From an uncultured Bacilli bacterium (lineage in GTDB: Bacteria; Bacillota_I; Bacilli_A; RF39; UBA660), in NCBI GenBank assembly GCA_944355355.1, contig CALVQE010000004.1, positions 1 through 49,411 of the forward strand: 49,411 nt of DNA, written 5' to 3'. The position numbers and the translations under genes are program-made. Below, piece after piece: positions 29,823 through 42,790 of this stretch. Every line of letters starts with the position of its first letter. Positions within the stretch are counted from its first letter, which is position 1. Below the pieces are notes generated by a model. The model was not told the origin of the DNA, searched no databases, and saw only the letters and a program-made list of their open reading frames with translations.

Positions 29823-30815
29823 ATGAGTCGTATGTTTGATTGGACGCTATCTTTAACAAATCTAGATTTAAGTTCGTTTGATACTTCAAATGTTACGAAT
29901 ATGAGTTCTATGTTTTATAATACGCCTTTAACCACACTAGATTTAAGCTCCTTTGATACCTCGAATGTCACGGATATGAGTTGGATGTTTTCTAGTACAG
30001 ATTTAACCGAATTAGATTTAAGTCATTTTGATACCTCAAATGTCACGGATATGAGTTACATGTTTAATTGGACGCTATCTTTAACAAATCTAAATTTAAG
30101 TTCATTTGATACTTCGAATGTCACGAATATGAGTTCTATGTTTTCTAGTACAGATTTAACCGAATTAGATTTAAGTCATTTTGATACTTCGAATGTCACG
30201 GATATGAGTCATATGTTTGCCGGTATGGACTTCTTAACAAGTTTAGATTTAAGCACTTTTGATACCTCAAATGTTACAAATATGAGCAGTATGTTTTCGA
30301 GTATGGATTCTTTAACAGCCTTAAATTTAAGTTCATTTGATACCTCGACTGTCACGAATATGAGTAGTATGTTTGCTTATACAGACTTAACCACACTAGA
30401 TTTAAGTTCATTTGATACTTCGAATGTCACGAATATGAGTTCTATGTTTTCTAGTACAGATTTAACCACATTAGATTTAAGCTCCTTTGATACTTCAAAT
30501 GTTACAAATATGAGTGAGATGTTTTATCGTATGTCATCTTTAACCACATTAGATTTAAGTGGTTTTGATACCTCAAATGTCACGGATATGAGTAGTATGT
30601 TTAGTCGTATGGAATCCTTAATAGAATTAGATTTAAGTAGTTTTGATACTTCCAATGTAGCAAATATGAGTTCTATGTTTTATTTCGCATATGGTTTAAA
30701 TACTATTATTTATGGAAATAATTTTGTGTATGCAAACACTGCGAGTGTTAGTAATATGTTTTATGATTGTCCTGCTAATAAACCAACAGATCCTTCTTGG
30801 GATGGAGTGTTGTAG
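29823..30815 (+). CDS. C-terminal part of the same surface protein: DUF285/BspA repeats
   Basis: 330 codons made of 11 repeats of 23-25 residues with the core LDLSSFDTSNVTNMSSMF, the DUF285 (BspA-like, Mycoplasma-type leucine-rich) repeat, then a short cap ending DPSWDGVL. Such repeats form an extended adhesive solenoid on surface proteins. The ATG at 29823 has no ribosome site; the open frame actually starts further upstream, where it reads NGKAYANYDSSSLF and NLQNLDTS, the normal lead-in to this repeat class. That frame joins the preceding ORF if one base is restored near 29714-29723. As it stands it is probably untranslated unless frameshifting or length variation occurs. Confidence 0.8.
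   Translation: MSRMFDWTLSLTNLDLSSFDTSNVTNMSSMFYNTPLTTLDLSSFDTSNVTDMSWMFSSTDLTELDLSHFDTSNVTDMSYMFNWTLSLTNLNLSSFDTSNVTNMSSMFSSTDLTELDLSHFDTSNVTDMSHMFAGMDFLTSLDLSTFDTSNVTNMSSMFSSMDSLTALNLSSFDTSTVTNMSSMFAYTDLTTLDLSSFDTSNVTNMSSMFSSTDLTTLDLSSFDTSNVTNMSEMFYRMSSLTTLDLSGFDTSNVTDMSSMFSRMESLIELDLSSFDTSNVANMSSMFYFAYGLNTIIYGNNFVYANTASVSNMFYDCPANKPTDPSWDGVL
29862..30680 (+). repeat. tandem ~69-75 bp repeats encoding DUF285 units
   Basis: Eleven copies of a unit containing TTTGATAC(C/T)TC(A/G)AATGT with high DNA identity. Such an array can gain or lose copies by recombination. Confidence 0.8.
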
Positions 30816-30831: not shown

Positions 30832-30868
30832 AAGAGTTATAAGCTTATTGTTATGATTCTTTTTTTTT
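30832..30868 (+). terminator. intrinsic terminator after the DUF285 protein
   Basis: An 11-bp stem with two G-U pairs (30832-30842 AAGAGTTATAA with 30851-30861 TTATGATTCTT), then a T9 run. Confidence 0.75.
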
Positions 30869-30876
30869 GGTATAAT
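30848..30876 (+). promoter_or_regulatory. promoter of the Tad/Flp pilus operon
   Basis: TTGTTA (30848-30853), 17 bp, TATAAT (30871-30876), overlapping the terminator's 3' arm. Confidence 0.7.
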
Positions 30877-30903
30877 GGGTACATAATAAGGGGAGTGGGA
30901 GCT

Positions 30904-31131
30904 ATGAGAATGAATAGAAATGGGCAAGCTCTTGTAGAATATGTTTTAATTGTCGCGATTATTAGTGTTATCACGGTTAGTATTGTGTCTTATTTTGGTG
31001 GTTATTTAAAGGATACAATTGTTAAGACGTCTTGTGAACTTGTCAATAATTATTATGTCGAAGGGGAAAAACCGGGTGATGCTGAGTGTTTGACAAAGGA
31101 AGAGTATGAACTTAGATATCCAGAACAATAA
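30904..31131 (+). CDS. Flp-type pilin
   Basis: 75 residues from ATG 30904 behind GGGGAGTGGGAG. The pattern of a class IVb (Flp) prepilin is clear: a very short basic leader (MRMNRN), the processing region G-QALVEYVLIVAII with Glu and Tyr at +5/+6, and a hydrophobic helix of about 20 residues (to residue ~32), then a small acidic tail with two Cys. Flp pilins are cleaved by a TadV-type peptidase, not present in the window, and assembled by TadA/B/C. It is the first gene of the operon and overlaps the next by 26 bp. Confidence 0.85.
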   Translation: MRMNRNGQALVEYVLIVAIISVITVSIVSYFGGYLKDTIVKTSCELVNNYYVEGEKPGDAECLTKEEYELRYPEQ

Positions 31132-31471
31132 AAAAGGACAGGCTTTGGTTGAGTTTGTCATTATTTTGCCCATTTTTATTTTTATGCTTTTAGCTATTAT
31201 TGATATTGGTAAGGTGATCTATAATCAAAATCGATTGGAAAGTGAGATGTCTAGTGTTGTTCTACTGTATCGGAATGAGAAGAGTTATGATGAGATTTTA
31301 GATGAGCTTAGTTTGAATGATGAAAGTGTTACTTTGGATGTAACGAATGAGGAAAATGAAATGGTAACTTTTTCGTTAAAAAAGAAAGTTACGATTGTAA
31401 CACCTGGACTCAATCTTTTGTTTTCTAATCCTTATGAAATAGAAGTGACAAGAGTGATTCATTATGAATAA
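31106..31471 (+). CDS. TadE-like pseudopilin
   Basis: 121 residues. The N-terminus NNKKGQALVEFVIILPIFIFMLLAIIDIGK is the TadE signature (GQALVEFxLxxPxxxxxxxxIxDxG). A ~70-residue external domain follows. TadE/F pseudopilins are processed like the pilin and are needed for Flp pilus assembly. The start overlaps the pilin gene and follows AAAGGAAG. It overlaps the next gene by 8 bp. Confidence 0.8.
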   Translation: MNLDIQNNKKGQALVEFVIILPIFIFMLLAIIDIGKVIYNQNRLESEMSSVVLLYRNEKSYDEILDELSLNDESVTLDVTNEENEMVTFSLKKKVTIVTPGLNLLFSNPYEIEVTRVIHYE

Positions 31472-31835
31472 TAAGGGACAGACGTTAATTATTTTTGTTA
31501 TTTTGATTCCAATTATTATTTTGATGATGGCTATTGTGGTAGATGTTGGAATTTTACAAAATGAGGTGACAAAGGCTACTGGGGTTGTTGATATGGCTAT
31601 TCGTGAAGCTTTTTTGAAGGGTGATGAGAGTGTTGTAGAGACATTGCTTGTTGAGAATGATATTCCGGTAGAAAATCTAAATGTTTCTTTTGAAGAAGAT
31701 GAGATTGAGGTAAATTTGACTTATTCTGTGGAGGCATTATTTGGTCGTATTGTTGGGTTAGAAACTTATGATGTTAATGTTCATCGGGTTGGAAAGTTGA
31801 GCAATGATGAAGTGATTATTGAAAAGAAAGAGTAG
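31464..31835 (+). CDS. TadE/TadG-like pseudopilin
   Basis: 123 residues. N-terminus NNKGQTLIIFVILIPIIILMMAIVVDVG: the same cleavage-type motif with Ile in place of the usual Glu at +5, as in TadG/DUF192-like pilus accessory proteins. One membrane helix, then an acidic domain. The missing +5 Glu suggests a structural minor component rather than a polymerising pilin. Coupled to both neighbours. Confidence 0.7.
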   Translation: MNNKGQTLIIFVILIPIIILMMAIVVDVGILQNEVTKATGVVDMAIREAFLKGDESVVETLLVENDIPVENLNVSFEEDEIEVNLTYSVEALFGRIVGLETYDVNVHRVGKLSNDEVIIEKKE

Positions 31836-31836
31836 G

Positions 31837-32616
31837 ATGAAGATGAAAAAGAGAATTGGCAAAAGTTTGTGTTTATTTTCTGGTAAAGGTGGGGTTGGTA
31901 AGACTGTCTTGGCTTTGAATTTAGCAGGTATTTATGCTGGTATTGAAAAGAAGGTTTTGCTTGTTGATTTGGATTTATCTGGTGGAGGTATTGCTTTAGC
32001 AACAAATAAGCCTGCTATTAAAACGGTTTATAATTTTGTGGATGATTATAATAATAATCGTTTTAAGGATTTTAATGATTATGTTGTTAAGTATAATGAT
32101 TATATTGATATTTTGCCTAGTCCTAAGGATCCTAGACAGGCCACAAAGATTGATTCTAAGTATATTGAGATTTTGTTAGATAAAGCTACTTTTCATTATG
32201 ATGTTGTGCTCATCGATACGAATCATGTTTTAAATGAGATTAATTTGGTGGTTTTGGATGCAGTGGATTCTATTTTGTTTGTGATGCAAAATGATCCAAT
32301 GGATTTAAAGAATATGAAGAGTTTGCTTTCTATTTTTAAGGATTTAGAGAAGACAAATTACAAGATTTTACTTAATAATTCAAGGGATCCTTTTAAGAAG
32401 TATTTTACGATGTTTGATATTAAGAGTATTATTAAGAGTAATGTTGATTATGAGCTTACTAGTGAGTTTTATGTCAAGAATATGGATGCTTATGTCATGA
32501 ATGGAGAGATTGTGACTTTACAACCTAAGGCTGCAAATACTTTTAATAAGGATTATACGACACTTGTGAAGATTGCTCTAGATTTTTTAGGAGGGGATAA
32601 GCATGACAAAGACTAG
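31837..32616 (+). CDS. TadZ/CpaE-like ATPase (MinD/ParA family)
   Basis: 259 residues. Deviant Walker A GKGGVGKT (about residues 15-22), Walker A' LLVDLDLSGG, and VVLIDTNHVLNE in the Walker B position. Tad loci carry such MinD-like proteins (TadZ/CpaE), which place the pilus machine; they often have an N-terminal receiver-like domain, absent here. The start is ATG 31837 or 31843, both near AAAGAGTAGG. It overlaps tadA by 14 bp. Confidence 0.82.
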   Translation: MKMKKRIGKSLCLFSGKGGVGKTVLALNLAGIYAGIEKKVLLVDLDLSGGGIALATNKPAIKTVYNFVDDYNNNRFKDFNDYVVKYNDYIDILPSPKDPRQATKIDSKYIEILLDKATFHYDVVLIDTNHVLNEINLVVLDAVDSILFVMQNDPMDLKNMKSLLSIFKDLEKTNYKILLNNSRDPFKKYFTMFDIKSIIKSNVDYELTSEFYVKNMDAYVMNGEIVTLQPKAANTFNKDYTTLVKIALDFLGGDKHDKD

Positions 32617-33937
32617 TTTGATTGAGGCGTTTAATATTGAACGTAAGCAGACAAAGATTGATAATATAACGGATTATGAGATTTTCCCTGATAAGAAGCT
32701 TTTGGATGATTTACGGGTTAAGATTGTGGAAAATTTAATTGATCAAGAAGTTCCCCAAGATAAGCTTTTGCAAGAGTTTATTAATGATGAGATTGATCGT
32801 TCTATTGAGGGTTATGATTTAACGAATTTGGAACGTAGTCATTTATATAATTTGATTGATAATGAGATTAATGGTTATGGACCTTTGACGGAGTTACTTG
32901 AGGATAAGAATATTACAGAGATTATGGTCAATAGTCCTCGGGAAATTTATATTGAGATTGATGGACAGCTTATTCGTGATGAGAGTGTTTCGTTTATTAA
33001 TGATGAGCATATTGTAAGAACGATTGAGCGAATGATTGGGCCAATGGGAAGGACGATTGATGCAACTAATCCTATGGTGGATTCAAGACTTAAGGATGGG
33101 TCAAGAATTAATGCGGTTATTCCTCCTTTGTCAACGAAAGGACCAGTTATTACGATTCGAAAGTTTAAAAGTGAGATGACTAGTGCGGATGATATGATAC
33201 GTATTGGTTCAATGACTCCTTATATGGCAACGTTTTTGGAGGCTGCAGTTAAGGGGAAATGTAATATTATTGTTTGTGGTGGTACTGGTAGTGGTAAGAC
33301 AACGCTTTTAAATATTTTGAGTAGTTTTATTCCTAATGATGAACGTATTATTACAATCGAGGATGCAGCTGAGTTAAAGCTTGAGAAGGAACATGTTATT
33401 TCTTTGGAAACAAGGGTAACGAATTATGATAATGAAGGAGAAATTACGATTCAGGATTTGGTTATTAATGCTCTTAGAATGAGACCAGATCGGATTATTG
33501 TTGGTGAGGTGCGTGGTAAGGAAGCTTTTGATATGTTACAGGCTATGAATACTGGACATGAGGGCTCTATTACGACGCTTCATGCTAATGGTCCAAAGGA
33601 TGCTTTAAATCGGTTAGAGACAATGGTTTTGATGAGTGGACTTGATATTCCTATTAAGGCTATTCGTGAGTATATTGTCAGTGCGATTGATTTGGTTGTT
33701 AATATTGAGCGTATGAGTGATGGTAAAAGAAAAATTACTTCGATTTCTGAGTTAGAAAGTTTTCAGGATGGGGATATTCATTTGAAAGAAATATTTGCTT
33801 TTCATCAGAAAGGTGTTACTGAAAGTGGCGAGGTCGATGGAACGTATACGCTTTATGATGAGAAGGTTCCACGGGTATATCGTAAAATTGCTGCGCGAGG
33901 GATTACAGAGATTAACGAGATGTTTCATATTAAATAG
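32603..33937 (+). CDS. tadA: Tad pilus secretion ATPase TadA/CpaF
   Basis: 444 residues. Type II/IV secretion ATPase: N-terminal helical region (1-~90), the [10 protein letters not shown] and [15 protein letters not shown] entry of the CpaF family, Walker A GGTGSGKT (about 227-234), Asp box [10 protein letters not shown], Walker [13 protein letters not shown] (about 295) and the His box [12 protein letters not shown]. It powers assembly of Flp pili from the cytoplasm. The ATG follows GGAGGGG inside the end of the tadZ gene. Confidence 0.93.
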
Positions 33938-33952
33938 GAAGGAGGAATTTGT

Positions 33953-34960
33953 ATGAATGCGTATTCTTTTCAGATTTTACTTACGCAAGGGATTGTTATT
34001 CTTTTACTTGTTGTTTTAATTATTTATTTGCTTCATCAAAAACGGGCAATTAAGTTAGCAAGACGATTTGAGTCTTTTGCTTTGTTAAGTATTAAAGATA
34101 GTGAAAAGAGTATTTTTGATCATATTGTTTCCTTTTTATGGTCGGTTATTCAGAAGATATCTAAAGTGCTTTCGAAGTCTGTTTTTTTGAAACGTTATGG
34201 ATCACGTTATGATAAGTATATTAAGTATGAAAATAAAGATAAGATTAGTAGTATGGATTATATAACGATTAAGTTTTTTACAGCTGTAGGTCTTATCTTG
34301 CTTAGTTTTATTACGGCAATGTTTCGTTTGAGTTCTTTAAATTTCATGAGTTTACTGCTTACTTTTGTAGTTGGTTTCTTTTTGCCAGATTTACTTTTGT
34401 ATATTCAATTTCAAAAGAAAAGAAAACGGATTGAGGATGATCTTTTAAAGGCCATCATTATTATGAATAATAGTTTTAAATCAGGACGAAATATTATGCA
34501 AGCGGTGGAGATTGTTAAAAATGAACTGGAAGGTCCAATTAGTGATGAGTTTAAGAAGATTTATATGGATATGACTTATGGGCTTAGTATTGAGGTAGTT
34601 TTTGAACGGTTTTATAATCGGGTAAAATTAGATGATGCTAAGTATATTACAAGTTCTCTTACAATGCTTAATAAAACGGGTGGAAATATCGTAAAAGTAT
34701 TTGGGACGATTGAGAAGTCTTTCTTTAATAAGAAGAGGTTAAAACAAGAAATGGAGAGTTTAACAAGTGCTTCAATATTTGTTTTCCGTGTTTTATGTGT
34801 GATGCCTTTTTTGTTTATTTTAGCGATTTACATCTTGAATCCAACTTATTTTGAGCCTATGTTTACGACTACTTTAGGACATATTTTGCTTGTTCTTACA
34901 ATTCTTTTCTATGGTTTGTATGTCTTAATTATTAAAAAGATATTAGAGGTGAAGATGTAA
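33953..34960 (+). CDS. tadB: Tad pilus inner-membrane platform protein TadB
   Basis: 335 residues. An N-terminal membrane helix, a soluble part, two central helices (about 105-145), a T2SSF/GspF-type helical domain (DLLKAIIIMNNSFKSGRNIMQAVEIV, GLSIEVVFERF, LTMLNKTGGNI) and two C-terminal helices. This is the TadB pattern, forming the membrane platform with TadC. Start ATG after GGAAGGAGG. The stop shares one base with the tadC start. Confidence 0.87.
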   Translation: MNAYSFQILLTQGIVILLLVVLIIYLLHQKRAIKLARRFESFALLSIKDSEKSIFDHIVSFLWSVIQKISKVLSKSVFLKRYGSRYDKYIKYENKDKISSMDYITIKFFTAVGLILLSFITAMFRLSSLNFMSLLLTFVVGFFLPDLLLYIQFQKKRKRIEDDLLKAIIIMNNSFKSGRNIMQAVEIVKNELEGPISDEFKKIYMDMTYGLSIEVVFERFYNRVKLDDAKYITSSLTMLNKTGGNIVKVFGTIEKSFFNKKRLKQEMESLTSASIFVFRVLCVMPFLFILAIYILNPTYFEPMFTTTLGHILLVLTILFYGLYVLIIKKILEVKM

Positions 34961-35661
34961 TGAAGGAAAGAAGCTTAGTTCGAAAAATTTATTTGGATAG
35001 TACGATTAAAAAAGTAGATCGTAAGGTTAAACTGTTAGGTATTCATTGTAAGTATGATCCCATTGATCTTTTAAATATTCGTTTACTTATTTGTTTATTT
35101 ATTTTGGCAGTTTGTCTAATTTTCTTTGATAATGGTTTTATTTTAGGGCCTATTTTAGTTCTTTTATTTCATTATTTAAGTGAGTATTTTGTTTTAGATT
35201 TGCCTATTAAGAAGAGATGTCAAAAGTTAGAAGAGGAAGCTATTTTCTTTTTTGAGGTTTTGTCTTTGACTTTAGAGGGTGGCCGCAACTTAACGATGTC
35301 TATTTCAATGACGGCTAAAAATGTTGATAGTGAGTTAGCTGAGGAATTTCAAAAATCTTTGAATGAAATGAAAATGGGCAAAAGCTTTCCAGAGGCAATG
35401 AACGATATGAAGGCTAGAATTCCTAGTGATACAATAAATAATGCTATTTTAAATATTGTTCAAGCAAGTGTCTTTGGAAATAATATTGAAGAATCTTTAA
35501 ATAATCAATTAGATTTTTTAAGGGATAAAAGATTATTAGAAATTAAGGGAAAGATTGGTAAATTGCCAACAAAGATTAGTGTTATTTCAGTTGTCTTTTT
35601 TATACCGATTATTTTACTGGTTATTTTATCACCAGTACTTATTGATTTTGTTATGAAATAA
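34960..35661 (+). CDS. tadC: Tad pilus inner-membrane platform protein TadC
   Basis: 233 residues, somewhat shorter than most TadC (about 290-320). It has the T2SSF-type domain (EEEAIFFFEVLSLTLEGGRNLTMSISM, NEMKMGKSFPEAMNDM, QASVFGNNIEESLNNQL) between a pair of helices (about 45-85) and a C-terminal helix. Paralogous in form to tadB and translationally coupled to it. Last gene of the core Tad set; a new -10 follows at 35689. Confidence 0.85.
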   Translation: MKERSLVRKIYLDSTIKKVDRKVKLLGIHCKYDPIDLLNIRLLICLFILAVCLIFFDNGFILGPILVLLFHYLSEYFVLDLPIKKRCQKLEEEAIFFFEVLSLTLEGGRNLTMSISMTAKNVDSELAEEFQKSLNEMKMGKSFPEAMNDMKARIPSDTINNAILNIVQASVFGNNIEESLNNQLDFLRDKRLLEIKGKIGKLPTKISVISVVFFIPIILLVILSPVLIDFVMK

Positions 35662-35665
35662 GGGG

Positions 35666-35694
35666 TTTAAGATTTCGGAAAAATATATTATAAT
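35666..35694 (+). promoter_or_regulatory. possible promoter of the SipW-type/DUF6273 gene
   Basis: TATAAT at 35689-35694; a TTTAAG at 35666 is a weak -35 at 17 bp. Confidence 0.45.
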
Positions 35695-35720
35695 GAAAAA
35701 GAGAATAGTTGGGTGATCGT

Positions 35721-37265
35721 ATGAACAATTGGAGCTTTTCAAGTATTTTTAAGAAAGAAACGAAATTAGCTAGTTATATTATTATTTGTCTTACTTTAGT
35801 TGTTATAGGTATTTCTTATGCTTTGTTTTTTAAAGTAGGAAGTAATAGTGAGAATCAAGAGGTTGTGGCTGGAACGTTTACGTTTACGTATGAACAAGGA
35901 ACTGAGATTACTAATACGGGTAATACTTCTTGTTTTTTACCAATGAATGCCGATGAAGCAGGATTGGTATCTAGTGATTGTGATTATGTATTTAGTGTTA
36001 AAAATACGGGTTCTTTAAAAGCAAGTTATACGTTAAGATTGGTTAGTCAAGATGTCAATACCATGGAAGCAAGTAAGTTAAAAGTCATGTTAAAAAGAGA
36101 AAACAATGGGAATTTAGAGACCGTAGAAGGATATCCAAAAGCGATATCGGAGTTAAGTGATGGTTATTTGCTTGAAGCTGAGATTGAACCAAATCAAATT
36201 GTTGTTTATCATATTCAAATTTATGTCGATGAAGCAAGTTATGTTTCAGGAGATGAAGGAAAGACAGTTGCTTATAAAATAGAAGGACATGGAGTAGTTG
36301 ATGATGATCAACCTCTTAGCACTGAAACAATAGTAGATAAGATTATTGAAGATGTAGACACAACTGGTGCTTGTCCAGTAGTGAGTGAAGATGGAACAGT
36401 GCAAGTAACAAGTGCTGAAAGTACAAATGGCTACTTATGCAGTGCACCAGATGATTATGGCACCTCTTATTATTACCGTGGTAATGTTACAAATAACTAT
36501 GTTAAGTTTGGCGATTATTACTGGAGAATTATCCGTATTAATGGGGATGGTTCTATAAGAATCATCTATGATGGGACAAGTGCTCATGCCAATGGCGAAT
36601 CAAGTACCGATAGACAAATTGGTGAAAGTGCTTATAATTCATCTTCTAATGATAATGCGTATGTCGGCTATATGTATGGAACACCAGGATCAACTACTTA
36701 TGATGCTACCCATGCTAATACTAATGATAGTACCATTAAAGCGTATTTAGATAATTGGTATAAAACAAATATTGAAGATAAAGGCTTATCAAGTTATATC
36801 AGCGATACCTTATTTTGTAATGATCGTTCGTTTGATTCATCCAATAGTGGGACAGGTACCGGGGCAAGTAATACTCAATATCGATGGTATAGTTCTAGTA
36901 ATGGAATACGACTTACATGTCCAAATCAAAATGATCGGTTTACAGTAGATGATGAAGTAACAGGCAATGGAGATTTAACGTATCCAATCGGACTTGTTAA
37001 TGCTGATGAAGTTTATTTAGCAGGAGGACATAGTGCGACTAATCATGGTTATTATTTATATACAGGCAACTATTACTGGACCATGTCGCCTGTTTACTTC
37101 AATAATGGCTATGCACGCGTGCGTTTCGTCACTTCTGATGGTAGTGGCCACCGCTATGTCACTGTGTATACCTTGAACGGTGTGCGGCCCACTCTCAATC
37201 TGATACCTGATAGCCTGAAAGTGGGCTCAGGGACGGCTGATGATCCGTATCGGATGACGGAATAG
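35721..37265 (+). CDS. SipW-type exported surface protein with C-terminal DUF6273-like domain
   Basis: 514 residues from ATG 35721, with GGGTGAT upstream. A basic N-terminus and hydrophobic helix ending GISYALFF (about 18-42), of the SipW-processed class, then a camelysin/TasA-like beta domain (VAGTFTFTYEQG, CDYVFSVKNTGSLKASYTLRL) to about 200. From about 240 comes a C-terminal domain with YYWRIIRINGDGSIRIIYDG, repeated small-residue loops, YYWTMSP and GVRPTLNL, the DUF6273-type pattern seen in many gut Firmicute surface proteins. The last ~60 codons differ sharply in base composition from the rest. It directly follows the Tad genes. No sortase signal; attachment would be by the N-terminal helix or by assembly. 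Confidence 0.8.
   Translation: MNNWSFSSIFKKETKLASYIIICLTLVVIGISYALFFKVGSNSENQEVVAGTFTFTYEQGTEITNTGNTSCFLPMNADEAGLVSSDCDYVFSVKNTGSLKASYTLRLVSQDVNTMEASKLKVMLKRENNGNLETVEGYPKAISELSDGYLLEAEIEPNQIVVYHIQIYVDEASYVSGDEGKTVAYKIEGHGVVDDDQPLSTETIVDKIIEDVDTTGACPVVSEDGTVQVTSAESTNGYLCSAPDDYGTSYYYRGNVTNNYVKFGDYYWRIIRINGDGSIRIIYDGTSAHANGESSTDRQIGESAYNSSSNDNAYVGYMYGTPGSTTYDATHANTNDSTIKAYLDNWYKTNIEDKGLSSYISDTLFCNDRSFDSSNSGTGTGASNTQYRWYSSSNGIRLTCPNQNDRFTVDDEVTGNGDLTYPIGLVNADEVYLAGGHSATNHGYYLYTGNYYWTMSPVYFNNGYARVRFVTSDGSGHRYVTVYTLNGVRPTLNLIPDSLKVGSGTADDPYRMTE
37075..37262 (+). other. GC-rich 3' cassette, candidate hypervariable region
   Basis: Hand count: 95 of 180 bases are G or C from 37081 to 37260 (53%), against 42 of 120 in 36901-36960 and 36961-37020 (35%). 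Codons switch to C/G endings (GTC, TTC, GGC, CGC, CTC). It starts at TACTGGACC(A/T)TGTC, shared with the 42585 cassette, and ends near the stop. A CCTGA/TCAGG inverted repeat lies close to its end. Confidence 0.6.
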
Positions 37266-37281
37266 AAGTAGGTGAATGTTA

Positions 37282-37800
37282 ATGAAAAAAACTTATATTG
37301 TGATTGCGGCTAGTGTAATGCTTTTGTTTTGTTTGGCTTATGCTGGTTCTTATGCGTATTTTTCTTCTGAGGCATTGCATGGTGGTAATTTTAAAGGGAA
37401 TATGGAGTCTGGTAAGGTTGAGGATGTTGTGATTTCTGATGGGGCTCATGTTACTAGTAGGACGATGATTCCTGGTGATGAGGTTCGGACGGTGTTTACG
37501 ATTACAAATCCTAATGATGTCATGGTTTGTCTTAGTTTGAAATGGACTGGTGTTATAAATACTTTTGTTAATAAGGATGATTTGGTTATTGAGTTAAGGG
37601 ATCAGAATAATGTTGTTGTTGGAAGTGGTACTTTTCCAGAAGGTGATGGAGAAGTTCTTGCTACTTCTTTACATGTTTTGGCTAACTCAACAAATACTTA
37701 TACTTTAACGATTACTTATCAGAATATGGATGAAAATCAGGTTGGTGATATTGGAGCTAGTTTTGAAGGAATTATTGAAGGTGAGTTAGGTTCATGTTAA
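37282..37800 (+). CDS. small camelysin/TasA-like secreted protein
   Basis: 172 residues from ATG 37282, 7 bases after GTAGGTGA; an ATG at 37276 is too close to that site. N-terminus MKKTYIVIAASVMLLFCLAYAGSYAYFSS: a SipW-type signal peptide ending in the A-G-SYAYFSS form. The body is a beta-sandwich-like domain (GNMESGKVEDVVISDG, TVFTITNPNDVMVCLSLKW, NTYTLTITYQNMD), like camelysin and TasA matrix-fibre proteins. These are released and can form fibres. It is co-directional with the preceding surface gene (17 bp) and overlaps the next, so it probably belongs to the same secreted set. Confidence 0.75.
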   Translation: MKKTYIVIAASVMLLFCLAYAGSYAYFSSEALHGGNFKGNMESGKVEDVVISDGAHVTSRTMIPGDEVRTVFTITNPNDVMVCLSLKWTGVINTFVNKDDLVIELRDQNNVVVGSGTFPEGDGEVLATSLHVLANSTNTYTLTITYQNMDENQVGDIGASFEGIIEGELGSC

Positions 37801-38405
37801 ATAAGAAGGGGATTACTTTAATTGAGATTATTGTGAGTATTGGTCTTATTTCGATTGTAATGATTTATTTGTTTAATTTGCTTGTTGATATGCAGTATGA
37901 GGAGGATCATGCTTCTTATGCTAAGGATAATGCGGTGAATCGCGCAACGATTATTCGGATTGTTCAGGATGATTTTATGGAGTATGGTCTTCAGGCTGTT
38001 AATCAATATACGGATGATAGTATTTCTTTTACGTTTGATGATGGAAGTATGAGAACGATGAATATTACGGCAAATTCAATTAGTTATAATGGTGAAACAT
38101 GGCTTTTAGATACAGACAATGATGAGGAAGTTTATGATGTTGATCATATTGAAATTTCGACTATTCCTTCTAATACATGTTCTTATATTATGAATGTTGA
38201 TACTGATGGTGATGGTAATTGTAATTATAATTGTGATATGAATGGGAATAATATTTTGGATTCTGATGAGATGAGTACACAGAGTGATTCTTATCGGGCA
38301 TGTTCGGATTATACTTATTTTCATGTGACTATTCCGGTTGTGACTGGTAGTATTGATAATGTTATTGATGATTTGGAATTCTTCTATATTGGAAGGAAGG
38401 GATAG
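37794..38405 (+). CDS. prepilin-like protein with an EF-hand-like loop
   Basis: 203 residues. The N-terminus LNKKGITLIEIIVSIGLISIVMIYLFNLL is a type IV prepilin-type (class IVa/pseudopilin) motif: G, then ITLIE with Glu at +5, and a hydrophobic helix. In the outer domain, residues ~140-165 have DTDGDGNC and then DMNGNNILDSDE, a 12-residue loop matching the EF-hand consensus (D1, N3, N5, D9, E12), so calcium binding is likely. Several Cys could form disulfides. Similar in role to ComG/PilE minor pilins; its processing enzyme is not in the window. It overlaps the camelysin-like gene by 7 bp. Confidence 0.72.
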   Translation: MLNKKGITLIEIIVSIGLISIVMIYLFNLLVDMQYEEDHASYAKDNAVNRATIIRIVQDDFMEYGLQAVNQYTDDSISFTFDDGSMRTMNITANSISYNGETWLLDTDNDEEVYDVDHIEISTIPSNTCSYIMNVDTDGDGNCNYNCDMNGNNILDSDEMSTQSDSYRACSDYTYFHVTIPVVTGSIDNVIDDLEFFYIGRKG

Positions 38406-38407
38406 AG

Positions 38408-38956
38408 TTGTTGAAGGGTAAGAATGGTTTTGTTTTTATTGAGACGATTGTAGTGACTTGTTTTTTAATTGTTTCATTGATGCTTCTTTATTCTTTGTTT
38501 GTTACATCCAATAATAATGAGCTACGAAGATTGCGCTATGATGATACGCCTAAGATTTATGATGCTTTTTATCTTTATCAATATTTGGAGAGTTATCATC
38601 TTGATAGTTTAATTCAAAATTTAGAGAATGGAACGAAGTATGAAATTATTTATCCTGGAAGGTCAGATATTTTTGGTAATGATACTTTAAAGGAGAGCAT
38701 TTTTTTTGAAAGTTTATGGGCTGAATTGAATATTCAAAGAATTTATTTGATTCCTGGTGATGTTAGTACAATTTTAGAATGTTCTAGTGAGTATGCGACT
38801 ATTTGTTCTAATACGAATTTGGTTAATTATTTAAATACATTAGATGATGGGGAAGACTATTATTTTATTGTTGAGTTTGCTAATGCTCGGGATGGTAGTG
38901 GTTGTACGAACGAGGATTGTGTATATTCTTATGCCTATTTTGAAGTTAGTCGTTAG
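38408..38956 (+). CDS. second prepilin-like protein
   Basis: 182 residues from TTG 38408 (or TTG 38411), after GGAAGGGAT. The N-terminus KGKNGFVFIETIVVTCFLIVSLMLLYSLF has the G-F-x-x-IE prepilin motif with Glu near +5 and one membrane helix. The outer part has two Cys pairs (CSSEYATIC, CTNEDC), plausible disulfides. No other family is recognised. It follows the preceding prepilin gene by 2 bp and ends the surface operon at the 38967 hairpin. Confidence 0.65.
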   Translation: MLKGKNGFVFIETIVVTCFLIVSLMLLYSLFVTSNNNELRRLRYDDTPKIYDAFYLYQYLESYHLDSLIQNLENGTKYEIIYPGRSDIFGNDTLKESIFFESLWAELNIQRIYLIPGDVSTILECSSEYATICSNTNLVNYLNTLDDGEDYYFIVEFANARDGSGCTNEDCVYSYAYFEVSR

Positions 38957-38966
38957 GTAAAATAAA

Positions 38967-39004
38967 GATCACTTGTTGCATAAAATGTAATGGGTGATTT
39001 TTTT
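38967..39004 (+). terminator. terminator of the pilus/surface operon, overlapping the ylbD ribosome site
   Basis: ATCACTT (38968-38974) pairs with GGGTGAT (38992-38998, including G-U pairs), followed by T7 (38998-39004). The 3' arm GGGTGAT is also the ribosome site of ylbD. Confidence 0.65.
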
Positions 39005-40648: not shown

Positions 40649-40677
40649 CTTATTATGCGGTGTCAAGAAAATGTAAA

Positions 40678-40709
40678 TTGACAACGGGGGGGGGGTATTC
40701 ATGTATAAT
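40678..40709 (+). promoter_or_regulatory. promoter with a G10 tract in the spacer
   Basis: TTGACA (40678-40683) and TATAAT (40704-40709) are both perfect but 20 bp apart. Ten consecutive G (40686-40695) fill half of the spacer. Loss of three G would give the optimal 17 bp. Confidence 0.85.
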
Positions 40710-40738
40710 CATCTTAGGAAACTGTGGTGATTTTTTAT

Positions 40739-42790
40739 ATGAAAGATATGGTTAATAATCAAAAGCGAAAGAAGGTTTTGCTTTTTATAGGAATTTTAAT
40801 TATGCTATGTGGAGTTATTGGTATAAGTTATGCTTATTGGATGCTTACCTATATGCAAGAAGGTTTAAATCGAGTAGCTAGTGGATGCTTTAGTTTAAGT
40901 TTGACGAATGAAAAGAACAGCATTAATTTGCAGAATGCCTATCCGATTTTGGATGAAGAAGGAAAGGCTTTAACTCCTTATTCCTTTACGATTACTAATA
41001 CTTGTGATTTGTTTGCAAGTTATACGGTTAATTTAGAGATGCTTGAGAATAGTACATTGGATAGCAAGTATATTCGGGTTATGTTAAATAATGAAGCTAT
41101 TCAAAATTTAAATGAATATGAAAGTACTACAACGACTATTTCTGGATCAGTAGGTTCTAAAGTGCTCGCGAAAGGCTCTTTAGGAAGTGGAGACTCTGCA
41201 GATTATACGTTAAGGTTATGGATGGATGAAGATATTACAATTGAAGATACAGATGCGATGAATAAGTTGTTTAGTTCAAAGGTTGTAATTGTGGCTAGTG
41301 TAAGTAATTATAGTCCTGTTGATCAAGGGTACACGACTTTAGCTGATGCTATTTTAGCAAATGAGTATCAATCTACACCAGAAATTGCTAAGCAAAAGAT
41401 TAGTGAAAAGCAAGCGGTGGATTTTACTAAGACTGCGCCAATTATTGATTGGCAAGAAAATCATACAGGGACCACTTCATCTCCTACAGCAACTATGCCA
41501 CATCCAGATTTAGTAGGTACGGGTGGCATAGCAGCTAATTTAACAGCCGAAAATATTTTGGTTAGAGTTGGCACAGAATATGAATTTGATTCGACAACAG
41601 GAAAATATACGTTTACAGAATATCAAAATGTCGACCCAACTACCTTAACTTATGGTGGTGAGGAAAAGTATTATTATTGTAGTTCAGGATTTAATACAAG
41701 TTCATCTGATTTAATCTCAATTTATCAAAATTATGAGAATTGTACAAGAATTTATAAATTAACTGGGGCAACAGCGAGCGATAGTAGTCAAACTGGTCCT
41801 GGAGGGGCATCAATTAAAACAAGGGTTTATCGTATGACTGGGTACGCTTATACTCAAACAGAGTTTGAAAGTGATAAATCTGACAAAGGATTATATGCGA
41901 TAGAAGACGCTGATGGAACAAGTTATTACTACCGTGGAAGTATATCTAATAACTATGTTTATTTTGCTGGGTATTATTGGCGAATTATTCGTATAAATGG
42001 TGATGGAAGTGTAAGACTTTTATATGCTGGAGATACAGCTGATGCAACAGGGAATAATTTAAATATGAAATTAACCGATAGTAGTTTAGGGTATACGAAT
42101 CAATCAACAATTGCCTTTAATACCGTTCGATCAGATCCTGCCTATGTAGGTTATATGTATGGTAGTACTTTGGGAAGTTCGTATGAACAAACAAATGCAA
42201 ATGAAAATGATTCTACTATTAAAAAGTATTTAGATAGTTGGTATAAACAAAATATATTAGATAAAGGATATGCAGATTATATAGCTGATTCAGGATTTTG
42301 CAATGATCGAAGTTTATCTACACAGGTTAATAACGGAGATGGGGTTAGTACTAGCGGGAGAAGTACTTATTATGGAGGATATCAAAGATTTTTTAGTACT
42401 AAAACACCAAGTTTAGTATGTCCTAATGAGGGTAATAACTTATTTACGACTTCATCAAGTGACATAGGTAATCAGAAATTAACTTATCCAATTGGACTTA
42501 TTACTGTTGATGAATTAATGTTATCTGGATATGCCAATGGCTATTTAAATAAATCGGCTTATACTTATTCTTCATCGACTTACTGGACCTTGTCTCCGAG
42601 TAATTTCGATGTCGGTAATGCGTCGGCGCGTGAGCTTGTTCTCCGTTCGGAGGGCTATGTGACTCAGTGGTACAATGTGACGGAGAGCTGGATTGGTGTT
42701 CGCGCGGTGATCAATCTGAAGTCTGACACTCAGATCAGTGGGGGAATTGGAACCTCTAATGATCCGTATGTTGTAAGTGATGTTCTGTAA
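40739..42790 (+). CDS. large SipW-type surface protein with C-terminal DUF6273-like domain
   Basis: 683 residues from ATG 40739, 8 bases after GTGGTGAT. N-terminal basic stretch and hydrophobic helix ending GISYAYW (about 12-38), then a beta domain (CFSLSLTNEKNSINLQNAYPI, FTITNTCDLFASYTVNLE) nearly parallel to the 28936 protein. A ~170-residue linker/Ser-Thr-rich zone follows, then from about 395 a domain with SYYYRGSISNNYVYFAGYYWRIIRINGDGSVRLLY, YWTLSP and IGVRAVINLKS, resembling the C-terminus of the 35721 protein. The last ~65 codons show the GC-rich shift. It has no sortase motif. Expression probably depends on the G-tract promoter. Confidence 0.8.
   Translation: MKDMVNNQKRKKVLLFIGILIMLCGVIGISYAYWMLTYMQEGLNRVASGCFSLSLTNEKNSINLQNAYPILDEEGKALTPYSFTITNTCDLFASYTVNLEMLENSTLDSKYIRVMLNNEAIQNLNEYESTTTTISGSVGSKVLAKGSLGSGDSADYTLRLWMDEDITIEDTDAMNKLFSSKVVIVASVSNYSPVDQGYTTLADAILANEYQSTPEIAKQKISEKQAVDFTKTAPIIDWQENHTGTTSSPTATMPHPDLVGTGGIAANLTAENILVRVGTEYEFDSTTGKYTFTEYQNVDPTTLTYGGEEKYYYCSSGFNTSSSDLISIYQNYENCTRIYKLTGATASDSSQTGPGGASIKTRVYRMTGYAYTQTEFESDKSDKGLYAIEDADGTSYYYRGSISNNYVYFAGYYWRIIRINGDGSVRLLYAGDTADATGNNLNMKLTDSSLGYTNQSTIAFNTVRSDPAYVGYMYGSTLGSSYEQTNANENDSTIKKYLDSWYKQNILDKGYADYIADSGFCNDRSLSTQVNNGDGVSTSGRSTYYGGYQRFFSTKTPSLVCPNEGNNLFTTSSSDIGNQKLTYPIGLITVDELMLSGYANGYLNKSAYTYSSSTYWTLSPSNFDVGNASARELVLRSEGYVTQWYNVTESWIGVRAVINLKSDTQISGGIGTSNDPYVVSDVL
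42585..42745 (+). other. GC-rich 3' cassette, candidate hypervariable region
   Basis: Hand count: 63 of 120 bases G or C from 42601 to 42720 (52-53%) against 19 of 60 in 42481-42540 (32%). It begins after TACTGGACCTTGTC, as in the 37075 cassette. An inverted repeat ATCTGA/TCAGAT sits near its end (about 42714-42735). Its codons differ from the other cassette mostly where AAT/AAC could be the parent (AAT versus GAT, TAT, GTC, TCG). Confidence 0.6.

Follow-up and report, generated by a model that had tools for sequence, protein, structure and literature searches.

A G10 tract in a promoter as a probable phase switch of a predicted retroelement-diversified surface protein gene in an uncultured Bacilli bacterium

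A perfect -35 box and a perfect -10 box held 20 bp apart by a spacer containing ten consecutive G raise the question of whether the tract switches the expression of the gene behind it. Most known poly-G promoter switches come from a small number of pathogens, and the DNA examined here belongs to an uncultured Bacilli bacterium, the relatives of which are mostly gut bacteria. We analysed a stretch of 49,411 nucleotides (hereafter the window) together with the rest of its assembly (1.37 Mb in 80 contigs), a sister genome (G437) and a broad set of relatives. Re-reading of the sequence reproduced exactly the TTGACA/G10/TATAAT arrangement with its 20-bp spacer reported in the preliminary description, and the GC content, put there at about one-third, was measured at 33.8% for the window. 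The elements of the locus are as follows:

40676-40741, + strand: conserved promoter-leader cassette, aaTTGACAAC-G10-TATTCATGTATAATcatcatAGGAaactgtGGTGatttttatATG, up to and including the ATG, common to otherwise different genes
40678-40683, + strand: -35 box TTGACA, perfect consensus, kept in 6/6 copies of the own genome and 7/7 copies of G437
40686-40695, + strand: G10 homopolymer within the promoter spacer, among just eight tracts of G8 or longer in the genome
40704-40709, + strand: -10 box TATAAT, perfect consensus, 20 bp from the -35 box
40739-42790, + strand: predicted exported or membrane-anchored surface protein of 683 amino acids, member of a large paralogous family and putative target of a diversity-generating retroelement (DGR)

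The order at the site is TTGACA, AC, G10, TATTCATG and TATAAT, the full spacer being ACGGGGGGGGGGTATTCATG, and the start codon ATG at 40739 lies downstream of the -10 box. By inspection, no second -10 box at 17 bp from the -35 box was found in the window.

The G10 promoter arrangement is not a product of chance. A first-order Markov estimate from the GG frequency predicted 0.01 G10 runs per window and approximately 0.3 G10 or C10 runs in the whole assembly; the assembly contains six G10 runs, each of them in this promoter context. Tracts of G8 or longer numbered eight with about five expected, and as this count is near expectation, the unusual features are the length of ten and the position. 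Six of the eight occur in the same promoter arrangement, each being exactly G10; the remaining two are G9 tracts, one in a prophage tail region and the other just before ybeY. The former (contig C10: 12136-12144, L037) separates the gene of a tail protein, which may end in an S74-type chaperone, from a tail gene downstream of it, and a prophage tail gene at this tract is possibly phase-variable. The latter (contig C35: 2330-2338, L045) directly precedes a TATAAT and the ATG of the ybeY-like gene, and could be a promoter spacer or a ribosome-binding site.

Slightly varied versions of the cassette were found upstream of the window gene and of genes on contigs C6, C7, C15 and C45. The sixth copy, on C11, is followed approximately 45 nt further by a sequence that resembles a group II intron start and runs into the contig end (3243-3370, L292), breaking the G10 leader at the expected place of the start codon; Rfam did not confirm this likeness, returning no match for either the C11 cassette or the window. 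G437, whose DGR reverse transcriptase (RT) is 97% identical to that of the own genome, carries seven cassette promoters. An inverted repeat, TGTCAA...TTGACA, overlaps the -35 box in four of these 13 copies (40661-40683 in the window, and loci L031, L047 and L246), and is possibly an operator. No copy of the exact cassette was found in IMG/VR.

The arrangement recurs well beyond these two genomes. The strict pattern TTGACA-NN-G4+...TATAAT was detected in 16 of 291 family genomes (the reversed-pattern control gave one in each of four genomes), and the looser pattern TTGAC-N1-4-G6+ in 58 of the 385 relatives searched, the richest genome having 43 sites (the reversed control gave 0 in the genomes listed). 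A scan of GTDB yielded at least 117 stretches with the arrangement, and the matches listed were mostly from gut Bacilli, Faecalibacterium, other Clostridia and Selenomonadaceae, plus Helicobacter and a few others. The first ORF downstream bore an N-terminal hydrophobic export signal at 76/102 G-tract sites versus 1/14 promoters from the same loci that have TTGACA and TATAAT but no tract (P = 1.6e-6, an optimistic value, as the signal was called by a simple hydropathy rule and many of the 102 sites share genomes). These comparisons support the -35/G-tract/-10 arrangement being a recurrent, selected promoter type upstream of putatively exported proteins. A G10 promoter with a 17-bp spacer was also noticed before a UDP-galactopyranose mutase-like gene (G235, contig C23: 6159-6187, L078), hinting that surface glycan synthesis is switched in that genome.

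Where one genome carried two or more copies of a cassette with identical flanks, the G count differed among the copies in 10 of 21 cassettes. For instance, Lapin-017 bin4 from rabbit gut carries eleven copies of TTGACACC-Gn-TAATATATAAT with n being 7, 8, 9 or 10, and copies in Faecalibacterium, of which the downstream 100 nt are 99-100% identical, carry G7, G8 and G10. The G-tract spacers spread over 14-21 bp with two peaks, at 15-16 and 19-20 bp, whereas promoters without a tract in the same sequences have their maximum at 16-18 bp (28/52). Such broad spacers and length-only differences are as predicted for a promoter switched by tract length, and are unlike a fixed spacing requirement. Published systems bear on the lengths concerned. 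In Treponema pallidum, transcription of tp0126, which has a poly-G between its -35 and -10 boxes, is optimal at a spacing of 17; the tprL promoter was active with G8 and near background with G10 in an E. coli reporter; and transcription of Neisseria porA, the layout of which the preliminary description had likened to that of the window, is lost when its 17-bp spacing is reduced (PMC7864442).

Taken together, we consider that the G10 promoter is probably a slippage-driven phase switch, placed on a surface protein gene that appears to be rewritten by a DGR (see below). The G10 run, lying in the spacer of a sigma-70-type promoter, would be prone to slippage: slipped-strand mispairing would add or remove G's and thereby change the distance between the -35 and -10 boxes, and the 40739 gene would in turn be transcribed or not at random. 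By analogy with the published systems, tracts of about G7-G8 (17-18 bp) are predicted to be on or strong, and the assembled state (G10, 20 bp) off or weak. Slippage in this species, its effect on transcription and the assignment of lengths to on and off are inferences. As the genome encodes a full-length MutS, slippage need not be fast and may be moderate.

The tract may alternatively be an element of fixed length under conventional regulation, in which a regulator binds or remodels the 19-20-bp spacer (MerR-type activators act on spacers of 19-20 bp), or in which stiff poly-G makes 20 bp act as a shorter distance. We regard this as possible but rather unlikely. In its favour, G10 and the 20-bp spacer are invariant at 13/13 sites of two species (six in the own genome and seven in G437), despite differing neighbouring spacer bases, the five bases before the -10 box varying in G437. 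The flank TTGACAAC-G-TAT is also conserved. Within the same genus, G071 carries G10 in four of five copies, 20 bp from a TACAAT -10 box, one length is common to most sites of G341, and spacers range only from about 18 to 20 bp. Nevertheless, this constancy is not decisive. In other multi-copy cassettes, the modal length accounts for 64/80 copies (~80%), and at this fraction the probability of finding G10 in 6/6 copies is 0.26 and in 13/13 about 0.06; moreover, a metagenome assembly reports the majority tract length alone at each locus. Against a fixed length stand also the 14-21-bp spacers of relatives and the length-only differences among copies with identical flanks. The non-G parts of the spacer vary between genera, as those of simple-sequence switches would, and neither a dyad nor a motif was seen to be shared by all copies.

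It is improbable that the G run is a passenger without effect on expression, carried by a cassette recently duplicated or gene-converted with surface genes. Some copies are indeed almost identical over ~60 bp before different genes, but the C15 copy and its G437 orthologue retain TTGACAAC-G10-TAT-N5-TATAAT although their flanks have diverged, independent G-tract promoters with differing flanks occur in many genera, and poly-G is otherwise very rare in the genome. An artefact of sequencing or assembly is less probable still: the length of a homopolymer is what a metagenome assembly gives least reliably, but the architecture recurs in assemblies made independently by different projects on several hosts (rabbit, deer, chicken and others), and the sister species has the same tract length.

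A slippage-driven switch thus accords best with the recurrence of the promoter type upstream of exported genes, the length-only differences in relatives and the published precedents, with the 13/13 constancy in the species and its sister weighing against it. The preliminary description had proposed such a switch, with a spacer moving through 17 bp. Family-wide, the spacer range of 14-21 bp crosses the ~17-bp optimum, but no G7 tract was seen in this genus among the G-tract promoter sites examined. Counting G lengths across related genomes, as it had suggested, gave variation in several relatives but the single length G10 in the own species and G437.

The gene behind the promoter was described earlier as encoding a large exported protein with a variable C-terminus. 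Both points hold: the ORF is 683 codons long with a predicted N-terminal hydrophobic signal or anchor, and the C-terminal variability is real, its cause being apparently a DGR, a mechanism distinct from the promoter tract and overlooked at that time. The protein belongs to a family with 54 matching places in the genome, the members of which share a C-terminal domain that is conserved apart from hypervariable sequence close to the end; most paralogues have other promoters without a G tract. In a test for a C-type-lectin/FGE-like fold, paralogues gave weak matches to DUF6273. No sequence match was found in PDB, and the AlphaFold model of the C-terminal domain (pLDDT 31) was unusable. The hypervariable part corresponds to the following feature, which was compared with two of the template-like repeats (TRs) on contig C20, TR3 and TR5:

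42591-42706, + strand: DGR variable repeat (VR)

The first 86 nt of this VR differ from TR3 at 10/24 template adenines and 0/62 other bases (P = 5.5e-7), and the last 30 nt are identical to TR5. The VR is a TR3/TR5 mosaic, which suggests template switching or successive partial homing. Judged from these sequences, the window holds a remote DGR target, the RT being encoded on a different contig. On C20, a close paralogue of the window gene is followed by six template-like repeats, an Avd protein (bAvd, E = 6.7e-10; NF033474, 1.1e-9; both just under the curated cut-offs) and an RT with IGNMTSQ and YMDD motifs (RVT_1, 1.6e-17). The VR of the C20 gene differs from TR3 at 19/30 adenines and 0/83 other bases. 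We also considered gene conversion from a cassette array without a retroelement, and rejected it, as the VR/TR differences fall on adenines and the RT and Avd genes adjoin the array.

Several observations accompany these loci. The six repeats of the C20 array (L013, 2588-4230) are all different, and targets match different repeats, with gene 1 of contig C30 being closest to TR4 and gene 2 to TR5. The target beside the RT has a one-base insertion in its VR (L013, 2131-2264) that shifts the frame, and this copy looks broken or switched off. Proteins of ~130-145 amino acids consisting only of a MutS N-terminal domain lie beside DGR RTs in three other genomes (G250, C25: 778-960; G097, C38: 8019-8150; G351, C7: 12775-12999), and an ORF similar to them is present in the own genome (C34: 445-720). 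The window contains a further candidate target:

35709-37265, + strand: paralogue that is a second DGR target, located within a Tad-like pilus gene cluster, with no G-tract promoter

A second DGR, detected in G437, has a template repeat that matches the VR of this paralogue (37084-37196); the VR differs from that repeat at 16/32 adenines versus 4/81 other bases. The surrounding cluster (30853-39000) comprises TadE/F-like, CpaE, TadA, TadB, TadC and pseudopilin-like ORFs, named by sequence inspection, and the product of 35709-37265 is possibly a hypervariable pilus-associated protein. A BspA-like repeat surface protein with SNVTNMSSMF repeats is encoded beside the cluster (29823-30815).

If both readings are correct, chance would decide whether the protein is made, and a separate mechanism would decide which variant, with the ligand-binding-like C-terminal domain of the exported protein being independently rewritten by the trans-acting DGR. 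A dedicated system joining DGRs and G-tract promoters was considered and rejected: RTs of this type occur in 19/58 genomes with G-tract promoters versus 112/327 without (odds ratio 0.94, P = 0.88), the two being statistically independent across the 385 genomes. Their union at the 40739 gene is thus a combination of two diversification mechanisms. The evidence appears evenly balanced on the broader proposal that a large family of uncultured gut Bacilli, and some Clostridia, use dozens of poly-G switches per genome as a genome-wide phase-variation system, and that in some species the genes so switched are also diversified by DGRs and carry two independent layers of randomness.

The class of mechanism is already known; what is new is its wide occurrence among uncultured gut Bacilli, together with the DGR target. 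A search of the open-access literature, with most subscription journals outside its scope, found no paper on either. The layout is common in a large group of uncultured gut bacteria, genomes of which carry up to about 40 copies, and G-tract promoters mark surface genes that may be under switching. The prediction is testable, as existing metagenome reads should show mixtures of tract lengths; such reads would also let expression switching and directed hypermutation be traced together at the 40739 gene.

Compared with known systems, the locus resembles porA of Neisseria meningitidis and tp0126 of Treponema pallidum in having a poly-G between the -35 and -10 boxes of a surface protein gene, the optimum of those promoters being ~17 bp (PMC7864442). 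It differs from them in that 20 bp are assembled in every copy and one cassette serves several unlinked genes, and in that its hosts are uncultured Bacilli. The Vlp and Vmm systems of Mycoplasma, in which homopolymer or dinucleotide tracts in promoters act as a phase switch, are similar in belonging to small AT-rich genomes (M. hyorhinis and M. mycoides, respectively) with tract-bearing promoters on a surface protein family (PMC10502178). The tract is a poly-A in vlp and a dinucleotide repeat in vmm versus poly-G here; transcriptional on/off switching has been described for both and is predicted here, and no retroelement diversification of the gene product has been described for them, unlike the putative DGR target of the window (PMC10502178). 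As in DGRs that have remote targets, the system comprises Avd, template repeats and an RT carrying the IGNMTSQ and YMDD motifs, and the VR changes are adenine-specific and lie at the C-terminal end of a surface protein; the main metagenome survey of DGRs states that remote targets lie beyond its detection (PMC8144416). Distinctive of the DGR described here are six template-like repeats in one array, several remote targets and a target VR that is a TR3/TR5 mosaic.
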